Assembly: GCA_017871115.1 (NCBI GenBank)
Contig: JAFCIZ010000010.1
Span: 800,636 to 864,635 of the forward strand
Origin: Cunninghamella blakesleeana
Lineage: Eukaryota; Mucoromycota; Mucoromycetes; Mucorales; Cunninghamellaceae
DNA length: 64,000 nucleotides
Direction of reading: 5' to 3'
The notes below the pieces were generated by a model, which saw only the letters and a list, made by a program, of their open reading frames with translations, did no database searches and had not been told where the DNA came from. Position 1 is the stretch's first letter; each line of letters starts with the position of its first letter. Positions 12,113-64,000 of this stretch are shown piece by piece. Both the position numbers and the translations under genes were made by a program.

Positions 12113-12511
12113 TGGAGGAATCGCTATTAGACTTTAAAGAATAGAGACCAGAACTTATCTGTAATGCCTATCAACTACTCAAGAAATGGATTTTGAAGTA
12201 CATGAAAACTCAGCTTTTATTGCAAATATGCTTCGGGACATAACCCAACATCAACAACAACAAAATGAAATCAATAATTGGTTAAACGTATTATCAGCTA
12301 TTAAAGGTGAATTAAATAACAAAAAGAAAAAGAACACAAAAAGGCAAAATCATTAAGGAATAGAAACAGCAAATCTAATTATTTCAAAACCAGGAAAACA
12401 ATTCTGATTCGAATGGTTCTGGTATAAATAATAATAACACTATCATAACATCCCAACAAACTTCTATCAACAAGACCAAACAACAACTTAGGCTAAGATA
12501 GAAAGTAGAAA
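12113..12511 (+). pseudogene. Remnant of a protein-coding sequence (unidentified)
   Basis: Protein-like but broken frames follow one another. MEESLLDFKE at 12113 ends in a stop. An ATG at 12186 opens 56 codons to 12356 (MDFEVHENSAFIANM..., then NEINNWLNVLSAIKGEL and a basic tail). A third frame reads NNSDSNGSGINNN and then INKTKQQLRLR to about 12511. The change of frame between adjacent protein-like segments suggests decay. Alternatively the 56-codon ORF is itself a small gene. No family is recognised. Confidence 0.4.
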
Positions 12512-15612: not shown

Positions 15613-15632
15613 TATATATATATATATACTTG

Positions 15633-15663
<31 letters not shown>

Positions 15664-31400: not shown

Positions 31401-32794
31401 ACTTTTTTTATTTTCCCTATAAATGGTAGTATGCATACCTAATTCAATTTACCTTTTCCAGATTTTAAAAGTTTTTTATGGAAACAACTCATGGTTCCAT
31501 TCTGTCCATTCCATTAGATACTATTCTATATATGGTGAATACTATGCGAATATTACCTCTCATTTTATTTATCAAGATTCATACTCACCATTTGGCTACT
31601 TGTTAATCTTACGTATTTTTTTTTCCAAATTTCATTTAATATATAGAGAGTCATCATTATTTTAGTAAGAACCTTAAAATTGATAGCTTGACTTTATTTC
31701 TAGTGCAAAATAAAACCACAATAATTATTTATTATTAGTTAACTTTTGTGTGTATATTTACTTGTTTGTCCATTATATATATATATATATATATATATAT
31801 AGGTATATTTATATTATCTTATTTAAATATATTAATATGAAAATTTTCCAGAGATATTTTCAACTTGATTTATACGTTTCGTTAAAAGAATGTACGATTT
31901 ATTCTCTAATATATATTTTGGTTGTATTATTGTGTATCACTTTATAGATTAAATAATGGATATTCATTTTGTTTTGTATAAAATTATAAATATATACAAA
32001 GTAAAACTAAAGAGCTACTGGGTATACTATAAACCTATATTTTTGATGGCCATTTATAAAAAAGAAAATTGTATAATAAATGATTATGCATATATATTTT
32101 TCGCACTATCATTATTGTTATTGTTATTTTCTTTTATATTGCATTTAATTGAAGTTGAGAAATAACATTATTATCCTTTATTAATAAAATTTATAAAGTA
32201 AATATCATGTATTGTTTTAGTATAAAAAAAAATCTTTGAACAGTTTAAAAATAATTTTCTTTAAAAAACAAACTATAGTGAAAAAAATAACTAATAAGGC
32301 TACCTGGAGTCGATTATTTGTATAGTTTACTTTTATATTTTACTGTATCATTATATTAGACGTTGTAAATAATATATAAAATTGATACACAATCATAATA
32401 ATAATAATAAAATCGGAGCGCAAATAGTTTCATTATTTTATTAGAATACCTGTTGCATTAAACATATAAATTATTTCTGTATTTAAATAATATGTTTATA
32501 AATATGAATTTATATCATATTTATTATAATATAACCATCAACTTGTACACTGATAAAAAGTATAGAATTACATATGTAATGAATAAGAAAACTCGATAAA
32601 GAAATAAATAGACAACATTATTTTTGCACGAGTTCTAATCTGATACAAATAAAAGTATTTATTATTATTATTTTATAAACGAATATGTAAAACTTGCAGA
32701 AACAATAAATAAAAAAAAGTCTTACCCCTTATAATATGGACTATGATAAAGGTCTCAGCTTTGTTTTAGTATTATAAAAAATCCATGTTCTCAA

Positions 32795-32934
<140 letters not shown>

Positions 32935-33151
32935 TTTTTTTTTTTTTTTATTTTATTTTATTTTTTATTTTATTTTATTTTTTATTTTATTTTTTATTTT
33001 ATTTTTTATTTATTTAATTTTCATTCTCTTGGTATCTTTCCATTTTTATTATGCATTCAACATAAAAAAATGACTAAACACTGATACATCTTATTAATAA
33101 TTGTTTTTTTCAATTCATTATTACCTCTTCCATCACTATAAGGGATAATTT

Positions 33152-33298
33152 ATGCCAGTTGATAATGACTACTGTCTTGGTAAAGGCCTTAATCCATCAT
33201 CCTCACTTGATCATATTACTTTCAAGAATGAAAAACGCGTTGCAGTTTACTGGGATATCTATGATAAAGTGGTATGTTCTGGAAGCCCTACTGAATAA
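33152..33298 (+). CDS. Small ORF or first exon (48 codons)
   Basis: ATG at 33152 opens 48 codons with balanced, protein-like composition: MPVDNDYCLGKGLNP, then FKNEKRVAVYWDIYDKV. A GTATGT donor-like site directly follows the DKV codons, so this may be exon 1 of a longer or broken gene. The adjacent downstream sequence offers no convincing continuation. VAVYWDIYD faintly resembles the start of NYN-type nuclease domains, but that is speculative. Nothing else identifies it. Confidence 0.35.
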   Translation: MPVDNDYCLGKGLNPSSSLDHITFKNEKRVAVYWDIYDKVVCSGSPTE

Positions 33299-33513
33299 TT
33301 ACAATAAAAATACAAAATTGTACAACATAATTTTATATTTAAAAATGTGTGTGTTAATGACTAAATAATAGTAATAATAATTTTTATTAAATAATGTACT
33401 GATAATTATTATAAAAATAAATAAAAAACAATTCAGATTTCAACTATTCTATTTTGTTGATATAAACGGAAATGGTATCAATTTTTTTTTTTTTTTTTTT
33501 TTGGAAGATAGGT

Positions 33514-33618
33514 TTATTCTTTAGATTTAGATCCAAAGATAGCTTTGATAAGTTTGACCAAAATTTTCTTGATGGATAAGCGAGTTGCTTTTTTTGCTTC
33601 TCTTTCAGCAATATTCAT
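33514..33618 (-). CDS. Small basic ORF, 34 codons
   Basis: ATG at 33618, stop at 33514-33516. The peptide is MNIAEREAKKATRLS, then KKILVKLIKAIFGSKSKE: highly basic and amphipathic, predicted as one helix. Codon content is far less A/T-homopolymeric than the neighbouring DNA. A long pyrimidine-rich tract (on the coding strand) lies about 70 bases upstream and a poly-T/poly-A run follows the stop. It could be a genuine micropeptide gene or a last exon. No family is recognised. Confidence 0.35.
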   Translation of the reverse strand: MNIAEREAKKATRLSIKKILVKLIKAIFGSKSKE

Positions 33619-34049
33619 CTTGTAATTTTTATATAATAAAAGAGCAAATATACAGTTAAAAGTTTGTCGTTTTTTTTTTAAAAAAAAAAAGAAAAAGAAA
33701 AAGAAAAGAGAAAGAAGGAGAAAAAAGATCGTCCTACCTTTTATTATAAAAGATCAGCCTCATTTTCTTTGCTAGGGCTTAGTGAAGTATAAATGGTTAC
33801 ACAGTAGCACGTTCTTTTTTAAAAAAGGTTAATTGCTTCATATATGAAGCAAATCTTGTTGTATTTTATTCGATGGAATATTTTAAAAATGGTAGCTGAA
33901 GTGTTTTTATTTTATTAATATTAGAAAGAGAAAAAAAGAAAGAGGAATATAGCGTTGTAACAAAAAATAAAATGATAAATAAAAAATAACTTGTAGTACA
34001 GCACCTTACTTTTATTATTTGTTGCTTCAATATTTGTAATCGTTTTTTT

Positions 34050-35546
34050 TTTTTTTTTTAACCTCTATGTCTTGAACGTCTATACTTTATTATTATCTTC
34101 AGAATAGAATAAAGTTGATCAAGATGATTGAATAGAATTATCGATATTTTCATGATGAGGTTGAGACAATACATTACTTTAATCCCAATTACTCGGGTTA
34201 TGTTCAGGAAAAGGTTGATAAAATTTTGGCTTACTGATATTACTACCCCTTTTGCTTAACGTTTGCAATTACTTGCGAGAATCTTTATTTTTTAGTGCTA
34301 ACAAATACTTCAGTTTATACCTATTTTAAAAGCACTTTATTTAATACACTAGATTACAGATCTTTATTTCTTTTTTTAATTAAAGATAGCCGATATATAA
34401 TATAAATAATCACTTGCAAAAACCAACGTACTAACAATAGAATGTTGATAATATACTGTCTGGGAACTTGATAATTATTATTATGATAGATAATAGGGGT
34501 CGTTAGTTGAACTTTAACTTACGGGAATAGTTAGTCAAGTTACATTGTTTAAATCACCAATTCCAGTATTTATATAACTTCAGAAGGTTATTCTGCGTAT
34601 GTGTAACCAAATTTTAAAAGAAGGTAAATATTTCTATATATAGTATCTATCATAATAATAATCATAAAAAAAAAAAGTTGTATAATTTCTTTATTTTATT
34701 TTATTTTCACCTGTATAAGCTTGCTATTTACAAATTTATTTCCATTCGAATATTTTACAAAAATGACTGTATCTTTCATTTCCAATAAGAAATAAGATGA
34801 TTTGACAGATGAGAAAACATCGAACATAGTATCAAATATAGCTTATCTCTTGCATTGGTTCATTTATTGTGTAAAAGAATAAAATGATATTAAATAAAAT
34901 AATTAATAATGGCTGATTACCAAATCATGTAAAACTATCCCTATCATTTATTCTTTTATTAGTAATTTCCGTACTACTTTCTCCATTTCTTTCACCATAA
35001 ATGAATAAAACGTCTTTATTAGGTACTAAAAAACATAAGATAAAACAAGTTTAGTATGTAACAAGTTAAAAATAAGTAATATATAAATAAATAAAATGCA
35101 CTGGTCGTTTTTTACTGATTTATTACTTTTTGGAATACATCTTGGACGGTTGAATAACTTGACATATTTGATAATATCTTATTGCCAACTACCAAGCTAT
35201 TATTAAGATTTTTTCAGCGATAAGCCTTGGTATGAAATGCTATTACATCTGTAAAATCTGTGTGCCTTGTGGAATTACCCACACTGACAAAATAGCCATC
35301 TATAATATATAGTTTATCATTGGAGGAGAATAATAGAGATGAAAATATATGTTAATTGTTAGTTACCCTTGCTGTTTTACTGTAATATATTATTGATTTA
35401 TTATTATAATTATAGTTATAATAATGTTGTCTAGAAGTAGCTATAGATTCAAGGAACGCCTCATATGCAAAAAGAAAAGCTAAGGTGGATAAACTTGTTA
35501 ACCATTGAATCCTATTGATTACAATAATAAATAATAAATGGACCAA
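34050..35546 (-). pseudogene. Pseudogene of a kelch/beta-propeller-like protein with C-terminal tail
   Basis: On the minus strand one frame runs from about 35520 to 35115 with stops at 35354-35352 (TAA), 35216-35214 (TGA) and 35114-35112 (TAA). Between them lie LSTLAFLFAYEAFLESIA, then NDKLYIIDGYFVSVGNS, DFTDVIAFHTKAYR, and NLNNSLVVGNKILSNMS. After an intron-like TTTTTAG at about 35022 comes DVLFIYGERNGESSTEI. Further segments are MFDVFSSVKSSYFLLEM (about 34840), HSIVSTLVFASDYLYYI (about 34440) and SKPKFYQPFPEHNPSNWD (about 34240). Beyond that a polar tail is broken by four in-frame stops (34181, 34121, 34082, 34067). KLYII-G and VLFIYG resemble kelch blades. The tail resembles a cytoplasmic C-terminus. 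It is a broken gene with reasonable confidence; the family is tentative. Confidence 0.55.
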
Positions 35547-35831
35547 AGAGAAGGTATAAAATAAAATATGAAAAAGTCCAAAAATTCATTATGCTGAAAA
35601 ATCAAGTATGATGATGATCCTTTTTCCAAATAAAATAAAGTTTTACATTTACATTTTTTCTTCTTCAAGGGGGGAATATGCATACATTGTATTTTCAAAC
35701 CACTAAACCAGAAAATAAAATATAAAGAATAATGTCTCTCATAGTCAGTAAATAAAAAACAATAAAAATTAGTCTTTTGCATTTTTCATTACATGCATCC
35801 ATCACATAAACTTTTTATAAAAGAGAATATA

Positions 35832-35870
<39 letters not shown>

Positions 35871-36383
35871 TTCCTTATTTTAATAGCTGGGATTGTTTAA
35901 TAAAATTTACAAAAAGATTTTATATGTAGTTGGTATAAAAAAAAGTGGCACTATTTTTCAAGTATTTTTTTATTATAAAAAATATTTTCAACTGTTATTA
36001 TGTTATTTGTATAGTACGTTATAATTACTCCAATAAATATGCTTACATTGAATATCAATAGGTCATATATAATTAAAAAAAAGAGAATAATAAAAAAAAA
36101 TTAAAATTATACATATTGTACAAGTTACTTTTTATCTAATTAACATTAATATATTTACATATTGTATTCTATTGTAAAAGGGTGAATCTAATGACTCTTA
36201 AAAATAAAATTTTGCATCTACCTTTTTATTTTTAATGAATAAAAATAAATATGAATACATATATATTGGTAAATAAATAAAGAGAGTATTTTTAATATTT
36301 ATATTTATATTTGTGATAATGATAATACACTAAAAACAAAGTAAGACAAAAGAGTAAGAGTAAAAATAATAGTTTATAATATT

Positions 36384-36421
<38 letters not shown>

Positions 36422-36628
36422 ATAATTATTATGTGTATTATTAGTATTAGCAGATAAAAGGATACTAGAATATAAAAATAGTAAGTGAATGGTATATATA
36501 TATGGCTTTTTAAAGCGGTGGGAATAAAAATTAGGCTACGAAAATTAAATTGCTTTTCTTTTATCTAGAAGCTGATTATGCTGACTATTATTCATATCAT
36601 ATACATCAGGTAATGTATTTAATTATAA
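35547..36628. other. AT-rich intergenic region
   Basis: Contains a (TA)n tract near 35832-35870 and a T36 homopolymer at 36385-36420. A minus frame at 35519-35782 has no recognisable features beyond Lys/Phe bias. No gene is called. Confidence 0.4.
36385..36420. repeat. T36 homopolymer
   Basis: An uninterrupted run of 36 T bases, one of several very long homopolymers in this window. Confidence 0.95.
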
Positions 36629-37859
36629 TTAATACCTATCGTGTTCAAGAAGATAGCCACTGTTACTGGTGGAAGGTAAAGATGGATTAATTAACAAATC
36701 TCCTCCACTAGGATTTTCTGATACTACTGTAATTGTTTTTAGACTTTTACTTTGAAATGGCGTAGTAGTAGTTGAAGACGATGATGTTGGTGAAGTGACC
36801 CAGTTAATAGCAACGACATTAACCATCATATCTAGATCACAGCCTAATTGACATATCACCCCGCGCTCATAACCATGAAGAATAATGAAAAATAATACAT
36901 TCGTAAACGATGCAAATAATGCAATAATGGAAGCAATTAAGGATCTATAGGCTAACTTTGTTAAACGAGACTTTCGACGACGAACAATGGTTCTATTTTT
37001 ACTAATTTTAAAAAGTGGTTTAAGGAAGAGTGCAGTTAATAATAGATTAATGATCTAGAGCCAATATAATATAAAGAAAAAAAAAGTTAGTCTTTTTATT
37101 ATATATTATTACTATAATAATATTCAAGTTATTTAACTACATACAAAATCGTAAACCAGCATAATAGTTGCTATTAAAAATATGAGTATAATATAGCACG
37201 TTCCATCCGATGTTACTTCAATTTTACGATAATAAATCTAAATTATTAAGCAATTTGAATATATATAATTCAATCAAATTTTCTATAAAGCTTTTTTTTA
37301 TTTATTTATTTTTACCACTAAAAAACAATGTATTGAACTGTATGGAATAACAATTATAATAAGAAACCGATACATTTTACTATTCCAACGAGTTGTTTTA
37401 TCTACTTTAACTAGCCATACTCTTTCTACCAACCAAAAATAAATGATTGCTTTTGTAGATCCATAAAAAGCTGCACAAAGCCAGTCTTCTGCATTACATG
37501 ATGTAGGATTTGCTAGTAAAACAATAATAATAAAAATAAAAAAGTAAAATAAATTCCGGTAGATCAATTTTTTTAAAATATATTAGAATAAAATAAAATA
37601 AAATAATATTCATAACGTTACCATTGTTAGTTAATATGATAAAAGTACCACTTATTATATATGCCCATGAAAAAACAATAAGTAAAACAACTAATCCTTT
37701 TGCGTATGTTAAACCATGTACTTGAATATAATATGTTTTCATGCCAAAAAAGACACCCATTAAAGTTATTCCGATAGTAGTAACAAATAATGTTAATATT
37801 TCTATGTGATCAGGTTGTGGTGTAGAAATGTAATCTGGGTACTTTTCTTGGATAGACAT
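36629..37859 (-). CDS. Multi-pass (about seven-helix) membrane protein, unknown function
   Basis: Four exons, 37859-37622, 37512-37316, 37237-37145 and 37054-36629, close in frame to 317 residues. Hydrophobic segments include ILTLFVTTIGITLMGVFFG, GLVVLLIVFSWAYIISGTF, the WLCAAFYGSTKAIIYFWLV region, FLIIIVIPYSSIHCFLV, CYIILIFLIATIMLVYDF, IINLLLTALFLKPLF and LIASIIALFASFTNVLFFI. A basic loop KNRTIVRRRKSRLTK precedes the last strong helix. The C-terminal tail is Ser/Thr-rich and polar. About seven helices with a short N-terminus and polar tail recall a GPCR-like topology, but no receptor family motif is visible. Paired Cys residues near the loops could form disulfides. Donors GTAACG, GTAAAA and GTATGT are used. 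Confidence 0.75.
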
Positions 37860-51788: not shown

Positions 51789-52549
51789 ATAAAACAAGGT
51801 GTGATGTATATATAATTTTTAAATTTTACTTTAAATCATAGTAATTAAAAGAAAAAACATAGTTATTTTATGTTGGATATAATCAATAATTGGATAATCA
51901 AAAAATAATAATTATATAAAGCTGTATGTCTTACTATGTAAATATATTTAAAACTTCAATTATTATAGCTATTATCATTATTGTTATTATTATTATTATT
52001 ATTACTATTTATTCTTGTATCGTTTGTTAATATTATTATGGCTTTGTCGTTCTTAATTCTTATTCGAATATTATTACTATTATTTCATTATTGCCATTAT
52101 GCTTTTATTTATATTTTATTTAAATAATTGAATATTGAATTGTTTAAATTATTACTCTTCTTTAATTTTACTTTATTATTTAAAAAAAAATCTTTTATTT
52201 TATTTATATGTTTATATCTTTTTGTTATAATTATATTTTTTATGTTTATATTTTACTATTATATTTTTTGTATTTATATTTTAATATCATTATATTTTTT
52301 ATATTTATAAATTATAAAATTCTATTCATTATACCAGTTTTATTTTTATTATTATCATTTATTATTTTTTTTGAGCTCTTTCTTTCTTTCTTTCTTTCTT
52401 TATATACATATTCAGTTTTGTTATTATTTTAATTAAATATCTGCCTCTCATTTTAATTTTTATTTTAACATTTTTTTTTTTATTTTATACTTTATATTTG
52501 TATTATTATTCTCTATATTCTAGTATATATACATATTTATATATTGTTA
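51789..52549. other. AT-rich spacer before the transposon array
   Basis: Low-complexity Ile/Phe/Tyr frames only, from T-rich DNA, with (TTA)n near 51980-52010 and a TTTC repeat near 52381-52400. No gene is seen. It ends at the TA target (52548-52549) of element 1. Confidence 0.5.
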
Positions 52550-52813
52550 CAGTGACGAGCGAAATTGTTCACGATTTTTTTTTTTTTTTACATTTTTTCA
52601 TTTATCTTGAAAAGTACATATTTAACTGTAGACATATGTTATATCATTCGAAAGCCCTATTAAAATACTAAATGTAAATAAACAATTTTCCATATAATAT
52701 ATATTAACATAACTGATAAAGAAGCACTTGAAAAAAAAAAGTCTCAAAAATGCATATTTTTTTTTATTAAAAAAATTAAATATATTATTATTTGCTAATT
52801 AAATTCAACAAAA

Positions 52814-53827
52814 TCACCATTTAGTTGCCCCTCCTTTTTGTTTTATCACAGCCTCTATACGTCTAGGCATACTTTCAATATGTTTTATGCACATTTCCGG
52901 TGTTATTTTTTTGTACCATATGTGGGCCGCGCGCTCCCATAGTTCTTGTTTGTTTTTAGGCGGTATGTTGTATGCTGCAAGTTGACACTTAAGATAAAAC
53001 CACATATTTTCGATTGGATTTAAATCTGGAGAGTATGGTGGCCAATCTAGAACGTTTATATGATGTTTTTTTATCCATTTAGTGGTAAAAGCTGACTTAT
53101 GTTTAGGATCATTGTCTTGTTGCAGAAGAACCTCATTCAGTTTCATGCCATAATCTTTTAAGGTGCCTTTGAAATCGTCCCCTAAAATCTCACAGTACAA
53201 TTTAGAGTCCATTCCACCTTCTATTTTTGCAATATAACCTGGTCCGTGTTGCGTAAAACAACTCCACAACATTAAACTTCCACCACCACCCTTATACTTG
53301 AAATTGAAATTATGGTCTCGTAAAGGTCTTCCTTTTTTAACCCACGTCCATAATTTCCCATCCGATCCAAAACGATTTATTTTTGTTTCGTCACTAAAGA
53401 CGACCTTTTTCCAATCTTCAACTGTCCAGTGTCTATGTGCTTTTGCCCAATTTAAACGCTTTTTCTTTCGTATAGTAGTAAGTGGCAAAGCGGACTTTTT
53501 AATCTCCGAAGCAAAATCATTATTACCAAGGAATCTTCGTATAGAATATGCTGAAATATTATAGCCACTAAAACGTAAAGCCCTTGAAGCACCTATAGCT
53601 GTAGAAAACTTGCCAGTATAGAAGTTACGAGCAATCAACCTGCCTAAATTACATGAGATTTCTGAATGTCGACCAGCATTATTTTTACAATTAACGTAAT
53701 TGCGTTTTGCAATTTTACTAATGAGACCGAGTGAAATATTCAGTGAACTTGCAATACTTCTATATGTTTCTTTATTATTAAGTTTTTCCAAAACTGCCAT
53801 TTTTTTGTTGTGAGATGTCTTCACCAT
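52814..53827 (-). CDS. Tc1-type DD34E transposase of element 1
   Basis: A single exon of 337 residues without defects. The N-terminal paired/HTH-like DNA-binding region contains ETYRSIASSLNISLGLISKI. The DDE core has VVFSDETKINRFGSDGK (first Asp), LLQQDNDPKHKSA (second Asp) and PPYSPDLNPIENMW (Glu). Thirty-four residues separate the second Asp from Glu, the Tc1 spacing. It cuts and pastes the element at TA sites. It is clearly diverged from the transposases of elements 2-5, so this is a separate lineage. Confidence 0.94.
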   Translation of the reverse strand: MVKTSHNKKMAVLEKLNNKETYRSIASSLNISLGLISKIAKRNYVNCKNNAGRHSEISCNLGRLIARNFYTGKFSTAIGASRALRFSGYNISAYSIRRFLGNNDFASEIKKSALPLTTIRKKKRLNWAKAHRHWTVEDWKKVVFSDETKINRFGSDGKLWTWVKKGRPLRDHNFNFKYKGGGGSLMLWSCFTQHGPGYIAKIEGGMDSKLYCEILGDDFKGTLKDYGMKLNEVLLQQDNDPKHKSAFTTKWIKKHHINVLDWPPYSPDLNPIENMWFYLKCQLAAYNIPPKNKQELWERAAHIWYKKITPEMCIKHIESMPRRIEAVIKQKGGATKW

Positions 53828-53955
53828 TGTTAATGGAATTAGGTTAATGAGTAGTAAGATGGTAAAGATTCAAAAAAAATAAAAAAATAAAAAAAAATGT
53901 AATTATAGTGACTTAAGGTCTCGGAAAATTTAAAAAATAAAAAAAAAAAGCATTT

Positions 53956-54226
53956 TATAATGTCACATAAAAAATTATATTTAAAAGAATTTTATATCTA
54001 TCATAAAAACAGAAAAAAAAAAACAGGTTTTTCATACTTTTTTTGAAACCCCGTTCATTTAAGGCTTCATACTTTCTCCAGCGCCAATTAGTATATAAAG
54101 CATGAAAGCTCATAACCACAGCTCTCATTTGATATAAAAGTTACCATTTTGTATTTATATTTAATTTCGAGAAAAATAAAAAAATATAAAAAAAAAAAAA
54201 ATCGTGAACAATTTCGCTCGTCACTG
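53956..54226. repeat. 271-bp tail of element 1, copy 1 of tandem duplication
   Basis: This segment, from TATAATGTCACAT to the right TIR end, is repeated with an exact period of 271 bp. The second copy starts at 54227 and is interrupted by element 2. Confidence 0.93.
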
Positions 54227-54364
54227 TATAATGTCACATAAAAAATTATATTTAAAAGAATTTTATATCTATCATAAAAACAGAAAAAAAAAAACAGGTT
54301 TTTCATACTTTTTTTGAAACCCCGTTCATTTAAGGCTTCATACTTTCTCCAGCGCCAATTAGTA

Positions 54365-56044
54365 CAGTGGCTTCCAGAAGTGATCGAATGTTTTCGTTTT
54401 TTTTATAAAATCAATTGTATCAATAAAATTTACTATTTAACCATGCATAATTTTTATATCAATCGAAAGCTCTATTGATTGGCTTTCATATGAATATATT
54501 TATATGCATTTCCATATTTGGGTTGCGGAGTAAATGGTGTTTGAAAATTATTGGCACATTCGATCACTTGTGTTGCGATACCAAAAAAATTAAAAATATA
54601 ATTAAAACACAATATAAATGGTACAAAAAGTCTTTATTTAATAATCAATCCAATAGCCCTTTGCTTTTATTACATCATTACAACGTTTAGGCATTGTTTC
54701 TATCACTTTTTTACAATCTTCAGCCGTGATTGTATTCCATACTTCCTGAGTACGGTCCCACAAGTCTAACATCCCTTTTGGTGGTGTAGTATAGTTGCTA
54801 AAGAGCCTGTTTTTCACTAAAGCCCATATATTCTCAATGGGATTCAAGTCAGGCGACTGTGCTGGCCATTCCATTACCGAAAAAGGCTGGTTTTCCAAGT
54901 ATTCTTTGACTGTTTTGGCTGTGTGTTTTGGATCGTTATCTTGTTGAAAGACCATTTTGCTTTGATCCATGCCATACCAGTCAAATGTATGCACTAATTC
55001 ATGCTCCAAAATAGCTTGGTAGAGTTCCTTATCTAAAACTGTATCAATTTTAGTCATGTAACCCGGGCCATCGTACGAAATGCATCCCCAAACCATTATG
55101 TTTCCACCACCATGTTTGACTGTTTGCTTGACATGTTTAGGTTGAAGCTTTTCCTCGGCCCTTTTCCAAGCATAGCGGCGTCCATCCGATCCAAAACGAT
55201 TAATTTTGGTTTCCTCTGACCAAATGACACGACTCCAGTCATCCAAAGTCCAATCTTTGTGTGCTTTTGCCCAAGCTAAACGAGCTTTAACATTTTTGGC
55301 ACTGAGGAGAGGTTTCTTTGGCTTGACAAAGGACCCTAATCCTTTTTCTTTAAGTGCTCTACGGACTGTTTGAGCACTTATATCGATTTCCAAATGTTCC
55401 TTTAATGCCTTCTGCACCTCAGTAGCATTACTTTTACCTCCTTTGGTCACTTGATGTACACAAAAGGACTTGTCTCTACCAGTGAGCTTGGATACAGCAC
55501 CACCAACAGCCATAGGAATCTCCCGTTCAAGACCTGCAGAGATATTGTGAACTGTTCCATAGCTAACACCAACATCCTTAGCTACTTGACGCATAGATTT
55601 ACCTTGTTTGAGAAGGTTAATGACTTGGTTCTTAATGGAATTTTGAATAGGACGCATGTTGATAACAGATCACTAAAAAATGGACAATATTGATATAAAA
55701 AATATATAAAAAATAGAATATTAGCTATAGATTTGAACTAAGAAAGTGCGAAACAGGTTTATTCTAACATTTTATAGGTTATTTTATACTCTATTATTGT
55801 TTTATTACAAGTTGTGGTATTTTTTTGGCATCGCAACACAAGTGATCGAATGTACCAATAATTTTCAAACACCATTTACTCCGCAACCCAAATATGGAAA
55901 TGCATATAAATATATTCACAAGAAAGCCAATCAACAGGGCTTTCGATTGATGTATAAATCATGCATGGTTGAATAGTAAGTTTTATTGATACAATTGATT
56001 TTATAAAAAAAACGAAAACATTCGATCACTTCTGGAAGCCACTG
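54365..56044 (-). mobile_element. Tc1/mariner element 2 (1,680 bp), nested in the duplicated tail
   Basis: Long terminal inverted repeats of about 226 bp (54365-54590 and 55819-56044), starting CAGTGGCTTCCAGAAGTGAT. They are flanked by TA at 54363-54364 and 56045-56046. Removing the element and one TA restores the element 1 tail exactly. It is the same family and same length as element 3. Its transposase carries a catalytic-site substitution. Confidence 0.94.
54638..55657 (-). CDS. Tc1-type transposase of element 2, first catalytic Asp replaced by Glu
   Basis: The 339-residue frame is open. HTH regions are VINLLKQGKSMRQVAKDVGV and a second helix-turn-helix near residue 75. The DDE core keeps FQQDNDPKHTAK and QSPDLNPIENIW, 34 residues apart. 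The first acidic site reads WSEETKINRF, whereas element 3 has WSDETKINRF; the codon at 55216-55214 is GAG instead of GAC. Asp at this place is invariant in active DDE/D transposases, so this copy is probably inactive although full length. The N-terminal region differs from element 3 at several residues (for example VSYGTVHNIS against VGYGTVQKYS). Confidence 0.92.
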   Translation of the reverse strand: MRPIQNSIKNQVINLLKQGKSMRQVAKDVGVSYGTVHNISAGLEREIPMAVGGAVSKLTGRDKSFCVHQVTKGGKSNATEVQKALKEHLEIDISAQTVRRALKEKGLGSFVKPKKPLLSAKNVKARLAWAKAHKDWTLDDWSRVIWSEETKINRFGSDGRRYAWKRAEEKLQPKHVKQTVKHGGGNIMVWGCISYDGPGYMTKIDTVLDKELYQAILEHELVHTFDWYGMDQSKMVFQQDNDPKHTAKTVKEYLENQPFSVMEWPAQSPDLNPIENIWALVKNRLFSNYTTPPKGMLDLWDRTQEVWNTITAEDCKKVIETMPKRCNDVIKAKGYWIDY

Positions 56045-56181
56045 TATATAAAGCATGAAAGCTCATAACCACAGCTCTCATTTGATATAAAAGTTACCAT
56101 TTTGTATTTATATTTAATTTCGAGAAAAATAAAAAAATATAAAAAAAAAAAAAATCGTGAACAATTTTGCTCGTCACTGTA

Positions 56182-57103
56182 ACTAATTATGAGATTTATA
56201 AAGAAGCTCCCGTGTTCCATCGACATAAGGAAAACTAAGGTCACCCAAAGATACAATATTGATTCGTTTAATAATGATGGGCGAGGAGGGTCTCTGCGTA
56301 AACATATTTATATAATTTTTTTATTTTTTATTTAATTCATATGGGTTCTACTTTTTAAAAATATCGAAAACAAATTATTGTTTTTTTTTTAATTTTTTTT
56401 CAAAATTTCAAATTTTTATTTGGATTTTGAAAATTTTTGAAAATTTTTTAAAAAATTGAAAAATAAATAAAATAAATGTAAAATAAAATAAAACAATAGA
56501 AAATAGAAATAAAATATAACTGGTTCTACTTCAGGCCTAAAAAATAAAACAATTTTAAAACGAAGGCAGGTGACTAATACACTAAGAGAATCAATTCATT
56601 CTTTTTAAAAATTATTAAAATAAAAATATAAAAAAATTAAAAGTTTTTTGTTATTTTCATTGAAAACCTTGGGGTTCATTCTTGAGATGAATTATGAAGT
56701 TAATGAAAAATTGGAAAAATAATTAACTTTATAAATTTATTTTAACTTTTTAATTTTTTTTTTTTTTTTTTTTTAAATATTTAGTAATTGTTATAGATTT
56801 CATTATTTTAATGAAATATATGTTTATATTTGCATATTTTTACCAAAATCCAAAATATAGTAAAGTTTAAATAAAAAATTAATAGTAATAAAAATAAATA
56901 ATAAAAATGATAAAGTGATAAAAACAACAAAAAATAACAAAAAATAACAAAAAATAACAAAAAATAACAAAAAATAACAAAAAATAACAAAAAATAACAA
57001 AAAATAACAAAAAATAACAAAAAATAACAAAAAATAACAAAAAATAACAAAACCAGGATAATGTAAACATAAATAAATGTAAGCGCTCTAAAAGATATCA
57101 AAT
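56182..57103. other. AT-rich spacer with decanucleotide minisatellite
   Basis: Contains strongly A/T-biased DNA, one poly-T run near 56755-56774 and the AAAATAACAA array. No gene is seen. Confidence 0.5.
56931..57050. repeat. (AAAATAACAA)12 minisatellite
   Basis: Twelve essentially perfect 10-bp units. On the minus strand the array is open in all frames and makes artefactual Phe/Leu/Cys peptides. It ends about 50 bp upstream of the tRNA gene. Confidence 0.97.
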
Positions 57104-57177
57104 GATTCCTTGGTGTAGTCGGTTATCACGCCTGTCTAACACACAGGCGGTCGCCAGTTCGAATCTGGCAGGAATCA
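57104..57177 (+). tRNA. tRNA-Val (anticodon AAC)
   Basis: The acceptor stem GATTCCT (57104-57110) pairs fully with AGGAATC (57170-57176), and the discriminator is A57177. The anticodon stem CCTGT/ACAGG encloses the loop CTAACAC with anticodon AAC. The T arm is GCCAG-TTCGAAT-CTGGC. An A box (TGGTGTAGTCGG) and a B-box-like sequence (AGTTCGAATCT) are present. There is no intron. CCA is not encoded, as expected in eukaryotes. Confidence 0.95.
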
Positions 57178-57179
57178 TA

Positions 57180-57184
57180 TTTTT
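57180..57184 (+). terminator. RNA polymerase III terminator after tRNA-Val
   Basis: A run of five T starts three bases beyond the tRNA, the usual Pol III stop signal. Confidence 0.7.
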
Positions 57185-58049
57185 GCAAATATTACGCAAG
57201 AATAATCACGTGATTTTTTGAAGTATATGTTGTGTGTGTTATTGGTAAGAGTTATTTTTGTTAAAATAAAATAAGAGAGTTTGTATTTATATTGTTGTGT
57301 AATGTTGTGTAAATTTTTGGTTGTTGTAAAAGTAGAATTTCCTTTTATAGTTTTGGAAAGTAGATAGCTTTGTAGTTTAGTTTAGTTGTCAGTGAGCACC
57401 AGTATCTTGTGTTATGTGGGTTTTTGGTTAAGATTTATTTTTGAAATGAGGAATGAGTATTATAAGTTATATTTGGAGTATATTGTTGTGTGGATTTTTG
57501 TTTAAGATTTATTTTTTTTGAAATGAGGAATGAGTATTATAAGTAATATTTGATATGTATAATATAATTCCAGTGAGCACCAGTTCCTGTTTTATAAGTA
57601 GAACGACTTAATATAAAGGAATAAAAAATAAAATAAAATAAAGTAAAAATAAAGAAATAAAAATATAAAAATTTTAAAAGGTGTAATATAATTGCAGGAT
57701 TAAAGAGAGATTTCAGTAACCGCAATATAAAATAAATATAATAAGAAAATTTAAAAAAAGTAATTTAAATTTGAGTGGTTGAATAATATTTAAGTAAATA
57801 AATATAAAAATGTAAAATAAAATAAAATGGTTTGTTATAAAAAAATAGATAAATTCAGTAACTTGAATGAGTTATAAGTAAAATAAGTTAAAATTATAAA
57901 ATATGATTTATAAAGTGGACAAGTTCAATAATTATTTAATAGATAATAATTTATTATAAAAATTTGACAATTTAAAAGAAAGAAAGAGAGAAAAATTGGT
58001 TCTATTTATATTTAAAAAAAAATTAAAATTTATAAAGATCGGGTAAGGA

Positions 58050-58145
58050 ACAAAAGCACCTTGGTGTTTTTGTACCTTTGGTGTTTTTGCACCTTTGGTG
58101 TTTTTGCACCTTGGTGTTTTTGCACCTTGGTGTTTTTGCACCAGT
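58050..58145. repeat. CACCTTGGTGTTTTTG minisatellite
   Basis: Six tandem units of 16-17 bp, each containing the palindrome CACCTTGGTG or CACC(T)TTGGTG. The array could form serial small hairpins. It encodes only an artefactual repeated peptide on the minus strand. Confidence 0.9.
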
Positions 58146-58238
58146 AGCACAAAGCCAATCCAAAAAAGGAAAGAAAAATCAGAGAGCGTTATTGCTAACA
58201 ATATAATAAGTTTCCAGTGAGCACCAGTTCCTGTTTTA

Positions 58239-59918
58239 CAGTGGCTTCCAGAAGTGTTCGAATGTTTTCGTTTTTTTTATAAAATCAATTGTATCAATAA
58301 AACTTATTATTTAACCATGCATGATTTATACATCAATCGAAAGCCCTATTGATTGGCTTTCATATGAATATATTTATATGCATTTCCATATTTGGGTTGC
58401 GGAGTAAATGGTGTTTGAAAATTATTGGCACATTCGAACAGTTGTGTTGCGATACCAAAAAAATTAAAAATATAATTAAAACACAATATAAATGGTACAA
58501 AAAGTCTTTATTTAATAATCAATCCAATAGCCCTTTGCTTTTATTACATCATTACAACGTTTAGGCATTGTTTCTATTACTTTTTTACAATCTTCAGCCG
58601 TGATTGTATTCCATACTTCCTGAGTACGGTCCCACAAGTCTAACATCCCTTTTGGTGGTGTAGTATAGTTGCTAAAGAGTCTGTTTTTCACCAAAGCCCA
58701 TATATTCTCAATGGGATTCAAGTCAGGCGACTGTGCAGGCCATTCCATTACCGAAAAAGGCTGGTTTTCCAAGTATTCTTTGACTGTTTTGGCAGTGTGT
58801 TTTGGATCGTTATCTTGTTGAAAGACCATTTTGCTTTGATCCATGCCATACCAGTCAAATGTATGCACTAATTCATGCTCCAAAATAGCTTGGTAGAGTT
58901 CCTTATCTAAAACTGTATCAATTTTAGTCATGTAACCCGGGCCATCGTACGAAATGCATCCCCAAACCATTATGTTTCCACCGCCATGTTTGACTGTTTG
59001 CTTGACATGTTTAGGTTGGAGCTTTTCTTCGGCCCTTTTCCAAGCATAGCGGCGTCCATCCGATCCAAAACGATTAATTTTGGTTTCGTCTGACCAAATG
59101 ACACGACTCCAGTCATCCAAAGTCCAATCTTTGTGTGCTTTTGCCCAAGCTAAACGAGCTTTAACATTTTTGGCACTGAGGAGAGGTTTCTTTGGCTTGA
59201 CAAAGGACCCTAATCCTTTTTCTTTAAGTGTTCTACGGACTGTTTGAGCACTTATATCGATTTCCAAATGTTGCTTTAATGCCTTTCGCACCTCAGTAGC
59301 ATTACTTTTACCTCCTTTGGTCACTTGATGCACACAAAAGGACTTGTCTCTACCAGTGAGCTTGGATACAGCACCACCAACAGCCATAGGAATCTCCCGT
59401 TCAAGACCTGCAGAGTACTTTTGAACTGTTCCATAGCCTACACCAACATCCTTTGCTACTTGACGCATGGACTTACCTTGTTTGAGAAGGTTAATGACTT
59501 GGTTCTTAACAGAATTTTGAATAGGACGCATAATGATAACAGAGTACTAAAAAATGGACAATATTGATATAAAAAATATATAAAAAATAGAATATTAGCT
59601 ATAGATTTGAACTAAGAAAGTGCGAAACAGGTTTATTCTAACATTTTATAGGTTATTTTATACTCTATTATTGTTTTATTACAAGTTGTGGTATTTTTTT
59701 GGCATCGCAACACAAGTGATCGAATGTACCAATAATTTTCAAACACCATTTACTCCGCAACCCAAATATGGAAATGCATATAAATATATTCACAAGAAAA
59801 CCAATCAACAGGGCTTTCGATTGATGTATAAATCATGCATGGCTGAATAGTAAGTTTTATTGATACAGTTGATTTTATAAAAAAAACGAAAACATTCGAT
59901 CACTTCTGGAAGCCACTG
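58239..59918 (-). mobile_element. Tc1/mariner element 3 (1,680 bp), apparently intact
   Basis: Same family and length as element 2, with 226-bp TIRs at 58239-58464 and 59693-59918 and TA at 58237-58238 and 59919-59920. The right TA is shared with element 4, which begins at 59921. The transposase is full length with all catalytic residues. Confidence 0.94.
58512..59531 (-). CDS. Tc1-type DD34E transposase of element 3
   Basis: 339 residues, intact. Two HTH motifs (KQGKSMRQVAKDVGVGYGTV and the segment around TEVRKALKQHLEID) form the paired-like DNA-binding part. The catalytic residues are in WSDETKINRFGSDGRR, FQQDNDPKHTAK and QSPDLNPIENIW, with DD34E spacing. It is nearly identical to element 2 but keeps the first Asp, so it could supply transposase for the non-autonomous relatives here (elements 2 and 6). 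Confidence 0.94.
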   Translation of the reverse strand: MRPIQNSVKNQVINLLKQGKSMRQVAKDVGVGYGTVQKYSAGLEREIPMAVGGAVSKLTGRDKSFCVHQVTKGGKSNATEVRKALKQHLEIDISAQTVRRTLKEKGLGSFVKPKKPLLSAKNVKARLAWAKAHKDWTLDDWSRVIWSDETKINRFGSDGRRYAWKRAEEKLQPKHVKQTVKHGGGNIMVWGCISYDGPGYMTKIDTVLDKELYQAILEHELVHTFDWYGMDQSKMVFQQDNDPKHTAKTVKEYLENQPFSVMEWPAQSPDLNPIENIWALVKNRLFSNYTTPPKGMLDLWDRTQEVWNTITAEDCKKVIETMPKRCNDVIKAKGYWIDY

Positions 59919-59920
59919 TA

Positions 59921-61576
59921 CAGTGGGTGAAAAAATTGTTCACGTGTTACTCACTTTTTCACTTTTTCACTTGTATCTCTACAACGGTCAGCAGCAGCAC
60001 AAAGCCAAATACAGTATTTGAAAGCCACGTTAAACAGGGTTATTTTGATGTGTAACATAGGCGGAGTTTATTATTAATATAAGCAATGAGAGCGATATAA
60101 AGGGGAAGGGGTTACGTGAACAATTTTTTCCAATGGAAAACATTTTCAATAATTCGCGTGGTACCACCAAGAACTGCTAATTAATCGTGCTGACAAATGC
60201 ATTGGAGCCTTCTAGATGGTCCTACAAATTATAAAAAGTATATAAACACCATGATTTTGCTGGGAAATTCCCTATTTTACCTTCTTTTTTCGCTGAACTC
60301 TTTTGCTTACGATACTTCCCTTATCATGACTCGTGCTCTTCCTGTTGGCGTCCAAATGGATTTAAAAAACCTTCTTATGAAAGATGTACCCATGGTAACT
60401 ATCTCCAAGAGGCTGGGTGTATCCAAAGGGGTGATCAGCAAGTATGCCAACAAGTGGTTTCCCAACCGCGATCGCAACCGAGCTGGTAGACCGGCGATTG
60501 TGGCTGATGCAAGCAAGTCTTTGGTGCGTAGGAAGGTTCTTTCTGGTGCTCTTCTTACTGCTCATGATGTCCATAAAGAGCTCTTGCAGCTTGGGTACAC
60601 CTTGACAGCAAAAACGGCCGGTAATGTCCTCAAGTCAATGAATTTCTTTTCCGCCATTAAGAAGAAGAAGCCTTTGTTGGGCGCCAGGCACATGAAGGCG
60701 AGGTTTGACTGGGCGAAACGACACCAACATTGGACCATCGATGATTGGAGAAGAGTCATCTTCTCAGATGAGACCAAAATCAACATTTGGGGGTCAGATG
60801 GGTGCAAGTACTATTGGTCAAGACCTGATGATGATCTCAAGCCGCATCATATCGATGTTACTGTCAAGCATGGTGGTGGAAGCCTGATGATGTGGGGTTG
60901 TATGACCTACTATGGACCTGGATATGCATGTCAAGTATACGATGGGACCATGAAGTCGGAGGATTATATTCACATCTTGGATACAAGTCTGCGTGACACC
61001 ATGGAGTACTATGGTCTGGACTGGTCAGAGATGTATTTTCAAGACGATAATGCACCCAATCACCGTTCCGTTGCCACCAAAAGATGGATCCAGGACCAAG
61101 GCATCGTTGTTCTAGAAGATTGGCCTGCTCAGAGCCCAGATTTGAATCCAATTGAGCACCTGTGGCATCATCTCAAGCTCAAACTTAGTGTCTATGAGAA
61201 GAAGGCCAAAGGTGTCCATGAACTTTGGGAAAGATGTGATAAAGAGTGGAATACATTCACCAAGGATGAGTGTAGAAGGTATATTGACAGTATGCCAAAG
61301 AGAATCAAGGCTGTAATTGACGCTAAGGGTGGCTCAACAAGGTATTAGTGATAGATTTTAGAGAAGGAAAAAATTGTTCACGTAACCCCTTCCCCTTTAT
61401 ATCGCTCTCATTGCTTATATTAATAATAAACTCCGCCTATGTTACACATCAAAATAAACCTGTTTAACATGGCTTTCAAATACTGTATTTGGCTTTGTGC
61501 TGCTGCTGACCGTTGTTGAGATACAAGTGAAAAAGTGAAAAAGTGAGTAACACGTGAACAATTTTTTCACCCACTG
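59921..61576 (+). mobile_element. Tc1/mariner element 4 (1,656 bp), GC-rich, apparently intact
   Basis: TIRs of about 211 bp at 59921-60131 and 61366-61576, starting CAGTGGGTGAAAAAATTGTT. They are flanked by TA at 59919-59920 and 61577-61578. The transposase gene is roughly half G+C while the host genes and element 5 are around a quarter to a third. The TIRs are also less AT-rich than the host. Confidence 0.94.
60326..61348 (+). CDS. Tc1/mariner DD35E transposase of element 4
   Basis: 340 residues from the ATG at 60326. An upstream in-frame ATG at 60197 exists, but the 60326 start aligns with the start of the element 5 transposase (M.RALPV against M.QALPV). HTH: VPMVTISKRLGVSKGVISKY. The core has VIFSDETKINIWGSDGCK, YFQDDNAPNHRSV and QSPDLNPIEHLW. 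Thirty-five residues separate the second Asp from Glu, unlike the 34 of elements 1-3. It has no stops or shifts. Codon choice is markedly GC-richer than in the neighbours (for example AAG, GCC and CTC), suggesting recent arrival from a less AT-rich genome. Confidence 0.94.
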   Translation: MTRALPVGVQMDLKNLLMKDVPMVTISKRLGVSKGVISKYANKWFPNRDRNRAGRPAIVADASKSLVRRKVLSGALLTAHDVHKELLQLGYTLTAKTAGNVLKSMNFFSAIKKKKPLLGARHMKARFDWAKRHQHWTIDDWRRVIFSDETKINIWGSDGCKYYWSRPDDDLKPHHIDVTVKHGGGSLMMWGCMTYYGPGYACQVYDGTMKSEDYIHILDTSLRDTMEYYGLDWSEMYFQDDNAPNHRSVATKRWIQDQGIVVLEDWPAQSPDLNPIEHLWHHLKLKLSVYEKKAKGVHELWERCDKEWNTFTKDECRRYIDSMPKRIKAVIDAKGGSTRY

Positions 61577-61582
61577 TATATA

Positions 61583-63245
61583 CAGTGGGGGAAAAAACTG
61601 TTCGGACGTTTTCAAAATTTGACTTTATTCTTTAATTACTCTATCAATACTTTATCAATCCTTATGAAACTTAGAATAGTAATAGAATAGCTTATTTATA
61701 AATATATTACAAAGTTTGAGTTTAAAATATTTAGATCTCCGGTTTTTATTAAGGTTTTAATCAGCGATGTCTATTCGAACAGTTTTTTCCATAATGTGAT
61801 TATTAAGTATTTTCGTTATGTTTTCCCATTTTACTTGCTATTATTGGTTCGGAAAGTATAGAATAATAATTACTAATGTAAATATATCCCGAAAAACTAT
61901 TTAAACCATTATTTTTCAATTTAATTATTTTTATTTTCTTTCACTTTTCTTTATCACTTCAATTAAACTACCTATTCACTTTATCCATTAATCAAGATGC
62001 CTCAAGCTTTACCTGTAGATGTCCAAAACGATTTAAAAGCAATGCTGATCAATGAAATACCATATAGTATCATTTCTAGTAGACTTAACTTATCAAAAAG
62101 TACCATTAGCTCTTATTCTAATAAGTGGTTCCCTAATAGAAACCGTAATCTTGGTGGAAGACCTATTGTTGTAGCCGACAAAACTAAATCTCTTATTAAA
62201 AAAATGGTTCTATCAGGTCAACTACTAACTGCCACGGATGTCCAAAGGATGTTATCGAACCTAGGATATGAATTGACAGTCAAAACATCGGCTAATGTTT
62301 TAAAATCTATGAATTTTTTTTCTGCTATTAAAAAAAAAGAAGCCACTTTTGTCAAAAAAGCATCAACAGGATTGTTTAAACTTTGCAAAAAGATACAAAA
62401 ACTGGACTATTGATGACTGGAGACGTGTAGTATTCTCTGACGAAACCAAAATAAACGTCTGGGAGTCTGATGGCTGCAAATATTATTGGTCAAGACCAGG
62501 TGACAAATTGAAGCCTCATCATCTTGATTTAACAGTCAAGCATGGGGGTGGAAATATAATGATGTGGGGTTGTATAACTCATTCTGGACCAGGATATGCA
62601 TGTCAAGTTTACGATGGGACTATGAAAGCTAAGGATTATCAAGAAATTTTGAACACTACATTCAGAGATAGCATGGAATACTATGGTTTTGACTGGTCAG
62701 AGTATTATTTTCAACAGGATAACGACCCAAAACATAAAGCAACATCAACTATGGAATGGATGCGACAAGAAAAGATAAAAATACTCGAAGATTGGCCAGC
62801 ACAAAGTCCTGACTTAAACCCAATTGAACATGTGTGGCACCATTTGAAGTTAAAGCTTAGTGAATACAGTACCAGGGCTAAAGGTGTTCACGAATTATGG
62901 GAAAGAATTGATGTAGAATGGAATTCTTTTACACAGGAACAATGTAGAAGATACATAGATAGTATGCCTGATCGTATTCAAGCTGTATTGGATGCTAAAG
63001 GCGGACCAACAAGATATTAGTTATTTAATTAGAAATTGGAAAAAACTGTTCGAATAGACATCGCTGTTTAAAACCTTAATAAAAACCGGAGATCTAAATA
63101 TTTTAAACTCAAACTTTGTAATATATTTATAAATAAGCTATTCTATTACTATTCTAAGTTTCATAAGGATTGATAAAGTATTGATAGAGTAATTAAAGAA
63201 CAAAGTCAAATTTTGAAAACGTCCGAACAGTTTTTTCCCCCACTG
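61583..63245 (+). mobile_element. Tc1/mariner element 5 (1,663 bp), frameshifted
   Basis: TIRs of about 209 bp at 61583-61791 and 63037-63245, starting CAGTGGGGGAAAAAACTGTT. They are flanked by TA at 61581-61582 and 63246-63247. Only TATATA separates it from element 4. It is of the same DD35E subgroup as element 4 but AT-rich like the host. Confidence 0.94.
61997..63020 (+). pseudogene. DD35E transposase of element 5, single frameshift
   Basis: The start MPQALPVDVQNDLKAML and HTH (IPYSIISSRLNLSKSTISSY) lie in one frame to an A9 run at 62330-62338. The rest (KNWTIDDWRRVVFSDETKIN, FQQDNDPKHKAT, QSPDLNPIEHVW) lies in another frame and ends at 63020. Alignment with element 4 puts a one-base gain in that A run. 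All three catalytic residues are present downstream, with DD35E spacing. It is either a recent inactivating slip or a sequencing error in a homopolymer. Similarity to the element 4 protein is high throughout despite very different base composition. Confidence 0.9.
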
Positions 63246-63247
63246 TA

Positions 63248-63724
63248 TATGGGCTTTGGTGAAAAACAGACTCTTTAGCAACTATACTACACCACCAAAA
63301 GGGATGTTAGACTTGTGGGACCGTACTCAGGAAGTATGGAATACAATCACGGCTGAAGATTGTAAAAAAGTAATAGAAACAATGCCTAAACGTTGTAATG
63401 ATGTAATAAAAGCAAAGGGCTATTGGATTGAATATTAAATAAAGACTTTTTGTACCATTTATATTGTGTTTTAATTATATTTTTAATTTTTTTGGTATCG
63501 CAACACAACTGTTCGAATATGCCAATAATTTTCAAACACCATTTACCCCGCAACCCAAATATGGAAATGCATATAAATATATTCATATGAAAGCCAATCA
63601 ATAGGGCTTTCGATTGATGTATAAATCATGCATGGTTAAATAGTAAATTGTATTGGATACAATTGATTTTATAAAAAAAAAAAAAAAAAAAACGAAAACA
63701 TTCGATCACTTCCGGAAGACACTG
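63248..63724 (+). mobile_element. Tc1/mariner element 6, 5'-truncated copy of the element 2/3 family
   Basis: Only the last 477 bp remain, inverted relative to elements 2 and 3. It carries the transposase C-terminus and the whole right TIR ending ACACTG, then TA at 63725-63726. Its A run inside the TIR is longer than in elements 2 and 3. The truncation point is TATATGGGC, directly abutting the TA of element 5. Confidence 0.92.
63250..63438 (+). pseudogene. C-terminal fragment of an element 2/3-type transposase
   Basis: The frame reads NRLFSNYTTPPKGMLDLWDR, continues NTITAEDCKKVIETMP and ends KAKGYWIEY. This is nearly identical to the C-termini of the element 2 and 3 transposases (which end YWIDY). 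The catalytic domain is missing. Confidence 0.93.
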
Positions 63725-63738
63725 TATATATATATATA

Positions 63739-63778
<40 letters not shown>

Positions 63779-63926
63779 AATAAGAAACGAAGACAAGCAT
63801 AAGAGAAGAACAAATAGAGCCACATACAAACAAAGAACAGACAAAGCATAATAGGATCAAATTAAAGTAAGGACAACATGAATTTAACAGATAAGAAAAA
63901 ACAAAACAGAAAATCAAGGGTCAGGA
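63725..63926. other. Telomere-adjacent spacer
   Basis: A (TA)n tract (63725-63742), a poly-A run of about 34, then A/G/C-biased DNA nearly free of T on this strand (63776-63920). No gene is seen; short Phe-rich minus frames are artefacts. Confidence 0.6.
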
Positions 63927-64000
63927 TTAGGGTTAGGGTTAGGGTTAGGGTTAGGGTTAGGGTTAGGGTTAGGGTTAGGGTTAGGGTTAGGGTTAGGGTT
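63927..64000 (+). repeat. Telomere repeat array (TTAGGG)12
   Basis: Twelve perfect TTAGGG units plus TT run to the last base, with the G-rich strand oriented 5' to 3' outward. The right edge is therefore a chromosome end, or the assembled part of one. Confidence 0.98.

Follow-up and report, generated by a model that had tools for sequence, protein, structure and literature searches.

A telomere-adjoining nest of four Tc1-like transposon families in Cunninghamella blakesleeana, and joint differences in a predicted recognition helix and the terminal repeat sites in two of them

Within positions 52548-63727 of a 64,000-nucleotide stretch of Cunninghamella blakesleeana DNA (the window, which is the right end of contig C10, 800636-864635), five full-length Tc1-like transposons and one truncated copy adjoin the TTAGGG telomere repeat (63917-64000, plus strand). 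The elements belong to four families, termed A to D, whose pieces fill about 9.1 of the last 11.4 kb. This bears out a sequence-only reading of the DNA, which had seen five full-length elements and a truncated one over most of that interval and had sorted them into lineages that correspond to A (DD34E, short terminal inverted repeats, TIRs), B (DD34E, TIRs of about 226 bp) and C and D together (DD35E, TIRs of about 211-213 bp). It is proposed that the array is probably a nest of four cut-and-paste families that insert at TA dinucleotides with a preference for ATATATAT and were likely kept there by tolerance, and that in B and D the predicted recognition helix of the transposase and its sites in the TIRs changed together. 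The families, their TA duplications and site preference, the nesting, the recurrence at other chromosome ends and in internal islands, the inverted motif inside the TIRs and the joint differences in B and D can be read from the DNA itself. The mechanism built upon them would be as follows: insertions into gene-poor islands and chromosome ends are tolerated, so that the nest likely persists; each transposase would read its four end motifs via the third helix of its N-terminal helix-turn-helix (HTH) domain; in B and D helix and sites would have changed together, partly by short patch conversion; and the matched changes would likely stop the subfamilies from moving each other. The genome surveyed comprises 31.9 Mb in 12 contigs, C1-C12 (labels distinct from element family C), and copies outside the window are named by contig and start.

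The layout is that of two nests rather than a row of neighbours. The first nest opens with E1 (52548-54228, minus strand, TA included), a family A element with short TIRs, the first 41 bp of both ends being identical, and a DD34E open reading frame (ORF) of 337 residues at 52814-53827. Directly after it comes A', a remnant of the right end of another A element (A positions 1409-1681), which E1 meets at a TA at the internal position 1409-1411. A' is split into a left half that is TA-joined to E1 (54227-54364, minus, A positions 1409-1546) and a right half whose end is intact (56044-56181, minus, A positions 1544-1681), and the element that splits it, and is therefore nested, is E2 (54363-56046, minus), a B element with ends of the AA/AA type described below and a 339-residue DD34E ORF at 54638-55657, which lies in TATATA at A' position 1545. 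The second nest opens with E3 (58237-59920, minus; ORF 58512-59531), a B element with mixed ends, the left of TTCGAA type and the right of ATCGAA type. E4 (59919-61578, plus), a family C element with 213-bp TIRs and a 340-residue DD35E ORF at 60326-61348 (frame open from the ATG at 60197), begins at the terminal TA of E3 and is parted by TATATA (61577-61582) from E5 (61581-63247, plus), a family D element of subtype D1 with TIRs of about 211 bp. E5 in turn ends at an internal TATAT of E6 (63246-63726, plus), which starts at that tract, comprises B positions 1-468 and has the opposite orientation to E3. The transposase frames of E1 to E4 are open; E5 is full length as DNA but its frame is broken into open pieces at 61997-62413 and 62349-63020.

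The junctions read CACTG-TA-CAGTG between E3 and E4, CACTG-TATATA-CAGTG between E4 and E5, and CACTG-TATATGGGC between E5 and E6. The earlier claim that E3 to E6 are separated only by TA or TATATA holds for the first two, where elements stand end to end, but not for the third, where an element end faces an internal TA. This last junction is what would remain if E5 had inserted into a B copy, with the other (left) half of E6 missing, and the same TATAT tract of B is occupied by a C insertion on contig C3. TA is present on both sides of 49/49 full copies with both flanks read, and the TIR arms, of 213-252 nt, are 90-99% complementary, which is not a chance level.

Insertion is selective among TA dinucleotides. 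Averaged over 47 distinct empty sites, 3.62 of the six flanking bases agree with ATATATAT, compared with 2.24 at 12,126 TAs in the vicinity (some of which, where flanks overlap, entered the count repeatedly), and none of 20,000 resamplings reached this preference. TATA was also tried as the target motif and is present at only nine of 21 distinct internal sites, where 4.6 were expected (p 0.024), but the match to ATATATAT works better. Among 48 abutting pairs 44 join an element end to an internal TA, four are end to end and none is internal to internal. Two internal TAs took three insertions each: B TA1017, and D TA542, which received a B, a D and a G-family element. If strikes are independent, at least two such triple strikes occur in six of 200,000 simulations with uniform TA choice, which took 26 events listed by hand including one C3 case and one position, B 731, that has no TA in the reference copy. 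Composites moving as a unit were considered for these sites and rejected. The B[B]B nests on C1 and C3 agree in insertion site and orientation, yet 62 of their 3,366 positions differ, and of the two D nests at TA542 the one on C1 contains a B element and the one on C3 a member of another Tc1 family. Repeated strikes are therefore likelier, although the two B[B]B nests may still share an origin.

Genome-wide, at least 82 full copies (40 B, 19 D, 12 A and 11 C) make up 146 pieces together with fragments; all these counts are lower bounds, as the best 40 of 99-109 candidates were scored in each of the four family searches, and the 40 full B copies equal the number scored. No uniform spread, which would have contradicted the sequence-only reading, is seen: 76 of the 82 lie either within 40 kb of a telomeric contig end (13 ends, 1.6% of the genome) or in six islands, internal stretches rich in transposable elements (TEs) that were delimited after the data had been seen and hold 2.4% of the genome. 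The telomere repeat was listed at 12 contig ends, with six further matches unlisted, so that the left end of C12 is inferred. The suggestion that such elements accumulate at chromosome ends stands in part: the same families occur at other ends, but the telomere is not special, since scored A-D matches come within 40 kb of only six of the 12 listed ends, and about 27% of the A-D bases found lie near the 13 ends compared with about 67% in the internal islands, so that the families are not confined to chromosome ends. A 26-base B pattern, for which all matches were listed, gave 57 matches and a control none; by hand tally 14 of these are within 40 kb of a telomeric end, 39 in islands and four elsewhere. 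A-D pieces make up 18-39% of five islands and 3% of the sixth, and the share of full copies that adjoin an internal site of a different A-D copy (20 of the 82) is in line with this. The islands also carry further Tc1 families, F, G and H, as well as reverse transcriptase and integrase ORFs, which we read as Ty3-like by domain content. No miniature inverted-repeat (MITE-like) solo TIRs of B, C or D were noticed in the element searches, a check that was not exhaustive. Dense Ty3-like integrase clusters lie at C6:3.26-3.38 Mb, C5:3.28-3.32 Mb and C1:3.74-3.83 Mb and could be centromeric.

The junctions at this locus invite the explanation that elements target the ends of other elements and pile up end to end, three junctions following one another from E3 to E6. 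Exact patterns in the 31.9 Mb find CACTGTACAGTG twice and CACTGTA-N0-12-TACAGTG twice, and two of these four matches are in the window. Against about 0.39 strikes at terminal TAs expected from TA counts, two single-TA end-to-end junctions are seen (P = 0.06), so that there may be a mild end effect. However, 44 of the 48 abutting pairs involve internal TAs, the repeatedly struck sites are internal, and of the four end-to-end junctions the one on C3 sits in a TA microsatellite, so that both elements struck the same tract. The preference for ATATATAT and a tolerant neighbourhood suffice, and attraction to element ends is therefore not needed; end targeting is improbable, and of the earlier idea of repeated targeting of TA tracts at element ends the TA-tract preference is supported and the targeting of ends is not. 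That the array is an assembly artefact of collapsed repeats is more improbable still: near-identical copies with long TIRs are hard to assemble, but each of the full copies with both flanks read is bordered by its TA duplication, and nests of this kind recur at many other sites. A less remote though still unlikely alternative is that the transposases are drawn to the heterochromatin of islands and ends by chromatin tethering, rather than surviving there for lack of selection. It would agree with the confinement of a young family, eight of nine identical C copies being in islands or at this end, and with the lack of any of the 57 B pattern matches on C5, C7, C9 and C11. The Ty3-like integrases cluster too, if in a more dispersed manner, which makes compartments tolerant or hostile to all TEs plausible, and none of the scored A-D matches falls in such Ty3-rich stretches as C5 3.28-3.32 Mb and C8 1.42-1.45 Mb. 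Tolerance and active targeting of islands cannot be separated on these data, which counts against the part of the proposal that rests on tolerance.

The ends of three families share an unusual arrangement. In B, C and D the end motif at about positions 16-27 of each end recurs in inverted form near positions 193-207, just inside the end of the TIR; in E4 the left inner copy, ACGTGAACAATTTTTTCC, is at 60109-60134 on the minus strand. The inverted inner match amounts to 15-18 of 24 bases and at five of the six ends is reached by 0-3 of 300 single-base shuffles. Direct inner matches amount to 12-15 of 24 bases and are reached by 22-296 of 300 shuffles: in B and D they are no better than shuffled sequence and in C they are weaker than the inverted copy, so that at both ends of all three families the best inner match is the inverted one. 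The inner cores are at the same positions of both ends in 31/31 B and 11/11 C copies; the core pattern missed three of five D copies, where sites vary, but all five full D copies compared show the same arrangement. Family F has an inverted inner site as judged by eye, and when an inner copy of the end motif was sought in E1 and family A none stood out. In Sleeping Beauty the inner sites are direct repeats, the so-called inverted repeat/direct repeat (IR/DR) arrangement in which the inner end motif has the direct orientation. An inverted inner site is an end architecture unlike this one and may alter the pairing of the ends. Searches of open-licence papers, in which co-switching as such was not queried, gave no account of inverted inner sites or of helix and TIR co-switching, a silence that carries little weight.

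The variants of this motif in family B go together with variants of the transposase. Typing covers 31 full copies and four fragments, with 57 B pattern matches genome-wide. Both ends are of the TT type in 24 full copies and of the AA type in six, E3 is the single TT/AA copy, and outer and inner variants agree at 62/62 ends. All 24 TT/TT copies encode SCTTVHKYS, whereas the six AA/AA copies encode SYGTVHNIS (four), SCTTVHKYS (one) or GYGTVQKYS (one), the last being also that of E3; three one-end fragments combine a TT end with SCTTVHKYS and a fourth an AA end with GYGTVQKYS. Codons 33-40 accordingly read YGTVHNIS in E2 (55538-55561, minus) and YGTVQKYS in E3 (59412-59435, minus; both coordinates from the ORFs). 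The TT and AA majority sequences differ at 34 nucleotides but at only four of 339 residues (33, 34, 38 and 39). When modelled with AlphaFold (38 sequences, mean pLDDT 80.5; model numbering starts at residue 2, positions here being protein residues), the E3 transposase has N-terminal helices at 6-17, 22-29 and 33-40, and all four differences fall in the third of these HTH helices. The third helix is the usual recognition helix of an HTH, and on the strength of the model it is predicted to have that role in B. The best fold matches of the model are Sleeping Beauty and Mos1, and a sequence search for solved structures of the N-terminal domain gave no credible match (best E 0.019).

The pattern was first suggested by B, with D serving as the second family and C as the control. 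Subtype D1 has CTGTTCGGACG/CTGTTCGAATA sites with the helix NLSKSTISSYSN, which in E5 is encoded by codons 31-42 (62087-62122, plus, counted from the ORF start) in and beside the predicted recognition helix, and D2 has CTGTTCATACG/CTGTTCATATG sites with the helix GLSKGVISNYSS. In D, 14 copies were typed for the helix and for one end or both: the two are of matching type in 9/9 copies compared and in four of five further ones (one with N for S at the last position), the fifth, C3:331374, being mixed. Of the 16 copies with a D1 helix, eight have D1 ends that were read directly, one is mixed and seven were assigned their end type from position and mismatch count; a Fisher test on D used those assigned types and is not relied on. 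The shared residue differences of D are 31, 35, 36, 39 and 42, of which 35, 36 and 39 belong to the equivalent helix and 31 and 42 lie next to it; in our alignment D 35 and 39 correspond to B 34 and 38, so that two helix positions changed in both families. In the control the two subfamilies are 49-51 bases apart with three to four residue differences, none of them in the helix, and have identical site cores. The helix region (14 codons) and site cores together hold 16 of 34 differences in B (1.8 expected), 17 of 51 in D (2.7 expected) and one of 49 in C (2.6 expected). Hybrids such as E3 and C3:331374 show that mixing of the parts occurs.

The main rival to a functional coupling holds that the joint differences reflect subfamily descent or block conversion, with no effect on recognition. 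Several features of the data suit it and weigh against the proposed co-change: four of eight changed helix codons in B and two of seven in D are synonymous changes, so that patch conversion rather than point selection may have moved them; the independent lineages are few, the 24 TT/TT copies being near-identical and hence not 24 independent cases; and 40 of the 51 shared D differences lie in the first 541 bp, where left TIR and helix could be one block. To the same side of the balance belong C3:217326, which has AA/AA ends with a TT-type helix, the third helix type of C3:230366 and E3, the mixed D copy, and the left end of B, where 31 of 300 shuffles reached the inverted match. Two broader ideas were also tried and rejected, to the cost of the coupling: no simple rule from helix residue to base extends across families, F fitting loosely and H not at all, and among homologs the helix varies only moderately and is not the most variable part, 54 of 328 windows being more variable for B and 105 of 329 for C. 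Mere descent or conversion nonetheless leaves unexplained that in B helix and right TIR are parted by about 260 bp without differences, that right-end D sites switch too, that two helix positions changed in both families, and that C diverged by 49-51 bases with neither helix nor sites touched; it is considered doubtful. The most economical account has helix and sites changing together in B and in D, which in our reading would be a natural co-switching of transposase specificity. In a fuller version, for which the chances appear even, such Tc1-like families divide when a cassette with the recognition helix and all four TIR sites, the two inverted inner sites included, are exchanged together. 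B and D would each have taken this course on their own, with changes at two shared helix positions, so that one genome would now hold orthogonal transposon lineages, and hybrids such as E3, with its mixed ends, would be intermediates. If this is true, the co-change lets one family split into separately moving versions. How a transposon and its transposase change recognition without loss of mobility is in our judgement an open question, and here one genome offers both matched states, hybrids and a diverged control family, in two families, making the relation of residue to base directly testable.

Nesting of an element in its own family appears to be followed by rearrangement. Where the insertion is in opposite orientation both host halves remain (C1:1210505, C3:169024, C3:981029 and C1:7751820), whereas in same-orientation cases one host half is missing (E1/A', C1:3759206, C2:1424434 and C2:1474508, for the last three as judged from match lists); with four against four cases the Fisher p is 0.029, two unclear cases (C3:201019 and C10:652867) having been left out. 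Recombination between the direct repeats of a same-orientation self-nest would trim one host half and leave E1 with its A' remnant, and exchange of the same kind would build tandem arrays elsewhere. At C2:1424434-1428149 a full B copy is followed by two tandem copies of B 1-1018 (1426116-1428149) joined at TA, an arrangement to be expected from unequal exchange within a self-nest. At its left end (21175-36866) contig C2 carries subtelomeric tandem 4.51-kb units of B, an integrase ORF and part of C, three of which differ at six and ten positions when compared, and on this sequence the array is a transposon-built satellite. The nests thus suggest a route from same-orientation insertion and recombination to tandem repeats.

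The transposases conform to the IS630-Tc1-mariner group in having a TA target-site duplication and a DDE_3 catalytic domain with a Tc1/Tc3-type HTH. PF13358 (DDE_3) scores above cut-off in E1-E4 and the 3' piece of E5; PF01498 (Tc1/Tc3-type HTH) does so in B and C, falls below in A (25.7 against 31.5 bits) and is absent from the pieces of the broken-frame E5. The D-E spacing is 34 in A and B and 35 in C and D, so that none has the 37 residues of the Mucorales DD37E elements; among 120 listed homologs of C it is 35 in 47, 34 in 41, 37 in nine and unread in 23. Nine of the 11 full C copies (E4 and eight other places) are identical over 1,660 bp with open frames, which by sequence identity is a very recent burst. 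In all 11 the frame also stays open for 43 codons ahead of the 340-residue start (60197-60325 in E4). Nine of the 31 full B copies read, C4:6789-8472 among them, have a stop in the transposase that cuts the longest ORF to 152 residues, and these copies may form a non-autonomous subgroup that spreads. A Paenibacillus metagenome-assembled genome has among its entries a protein with 63% identity to the fungal C transposase across 79% of it, probably a contaminant.

The sole tRNA found in the window, a tRNA-Val (AAC; 57103-57178, plus), lies between the two nests, as the single tRNA reported inside the array had suggested. Beside it, 57387-58237 is repetitive: a CAGTGAGCACCAGT stretch occurs three times, 57410-57552 holds a 77-bp tandem repeat, and 58056-58142 a 16-bp GCACCTTGGTGTTTTT array. 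Elsewhere in the window are an eIF3b gene, whose protein is 73% identical to that of Absidia cylindrospora, the best named match, which places the host in the Mucorales, and at 9541-25828 four large F-box-like ORFs of 636-707 residues, perhaps a local family expansion as judged from translations read by eye.

Among known systems, Sleeping Beauty (entry 5cr4) is the one solved structure that C matches by sequence, and it heads the fold matches of B, but its inner sites are direct and those of B, C and D inverted. Sleeping Beauty and ZB are reported to prefer the palindrome ATATATAT for insertion (PMC7077980, PMC7913693), the target also found here. Traveler (DD35E) shares the 35-residue spacing of C and D, a likeness by spacing alone, and is described as reported from vertebrates only (PMC7093834), whereas the named relatives of C, the family searched, are mostly from Rhizopus (best 64% identity) and Mucor, the closest hits being unnamed. 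The Mucorales elements RdTc1, RoTc1, CreTc1 and MraTc1, of about 1.65 kb with TIRs of 211-218 bp and tens to hundreds of copies (Zhang et al. 2016, PMC5630946), come from the same order of hosts and resemble those described here in length and long TIRs. They were found through a DD37E query, whereas B is DD34E and C and D are DD35E, and the portion of that article consulted mentions no inner inverted sites, co-switching or nesting. TE-in-TE nests at verified duplications are described in Mycosphaerella graminicola, where nested clusters in other fungi are also mentioned (PMC4522978); they consist mainly of long terminal repeat (LTR) elements, in contrast to the Tc1-in-Tc1 nests found here. The Tc1/mariner elements of Paracoccidioides are described as having no nested copies (PMC2836289), whereas in C. 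blakesleeana the nesting of one Tc1-like element in another is common.

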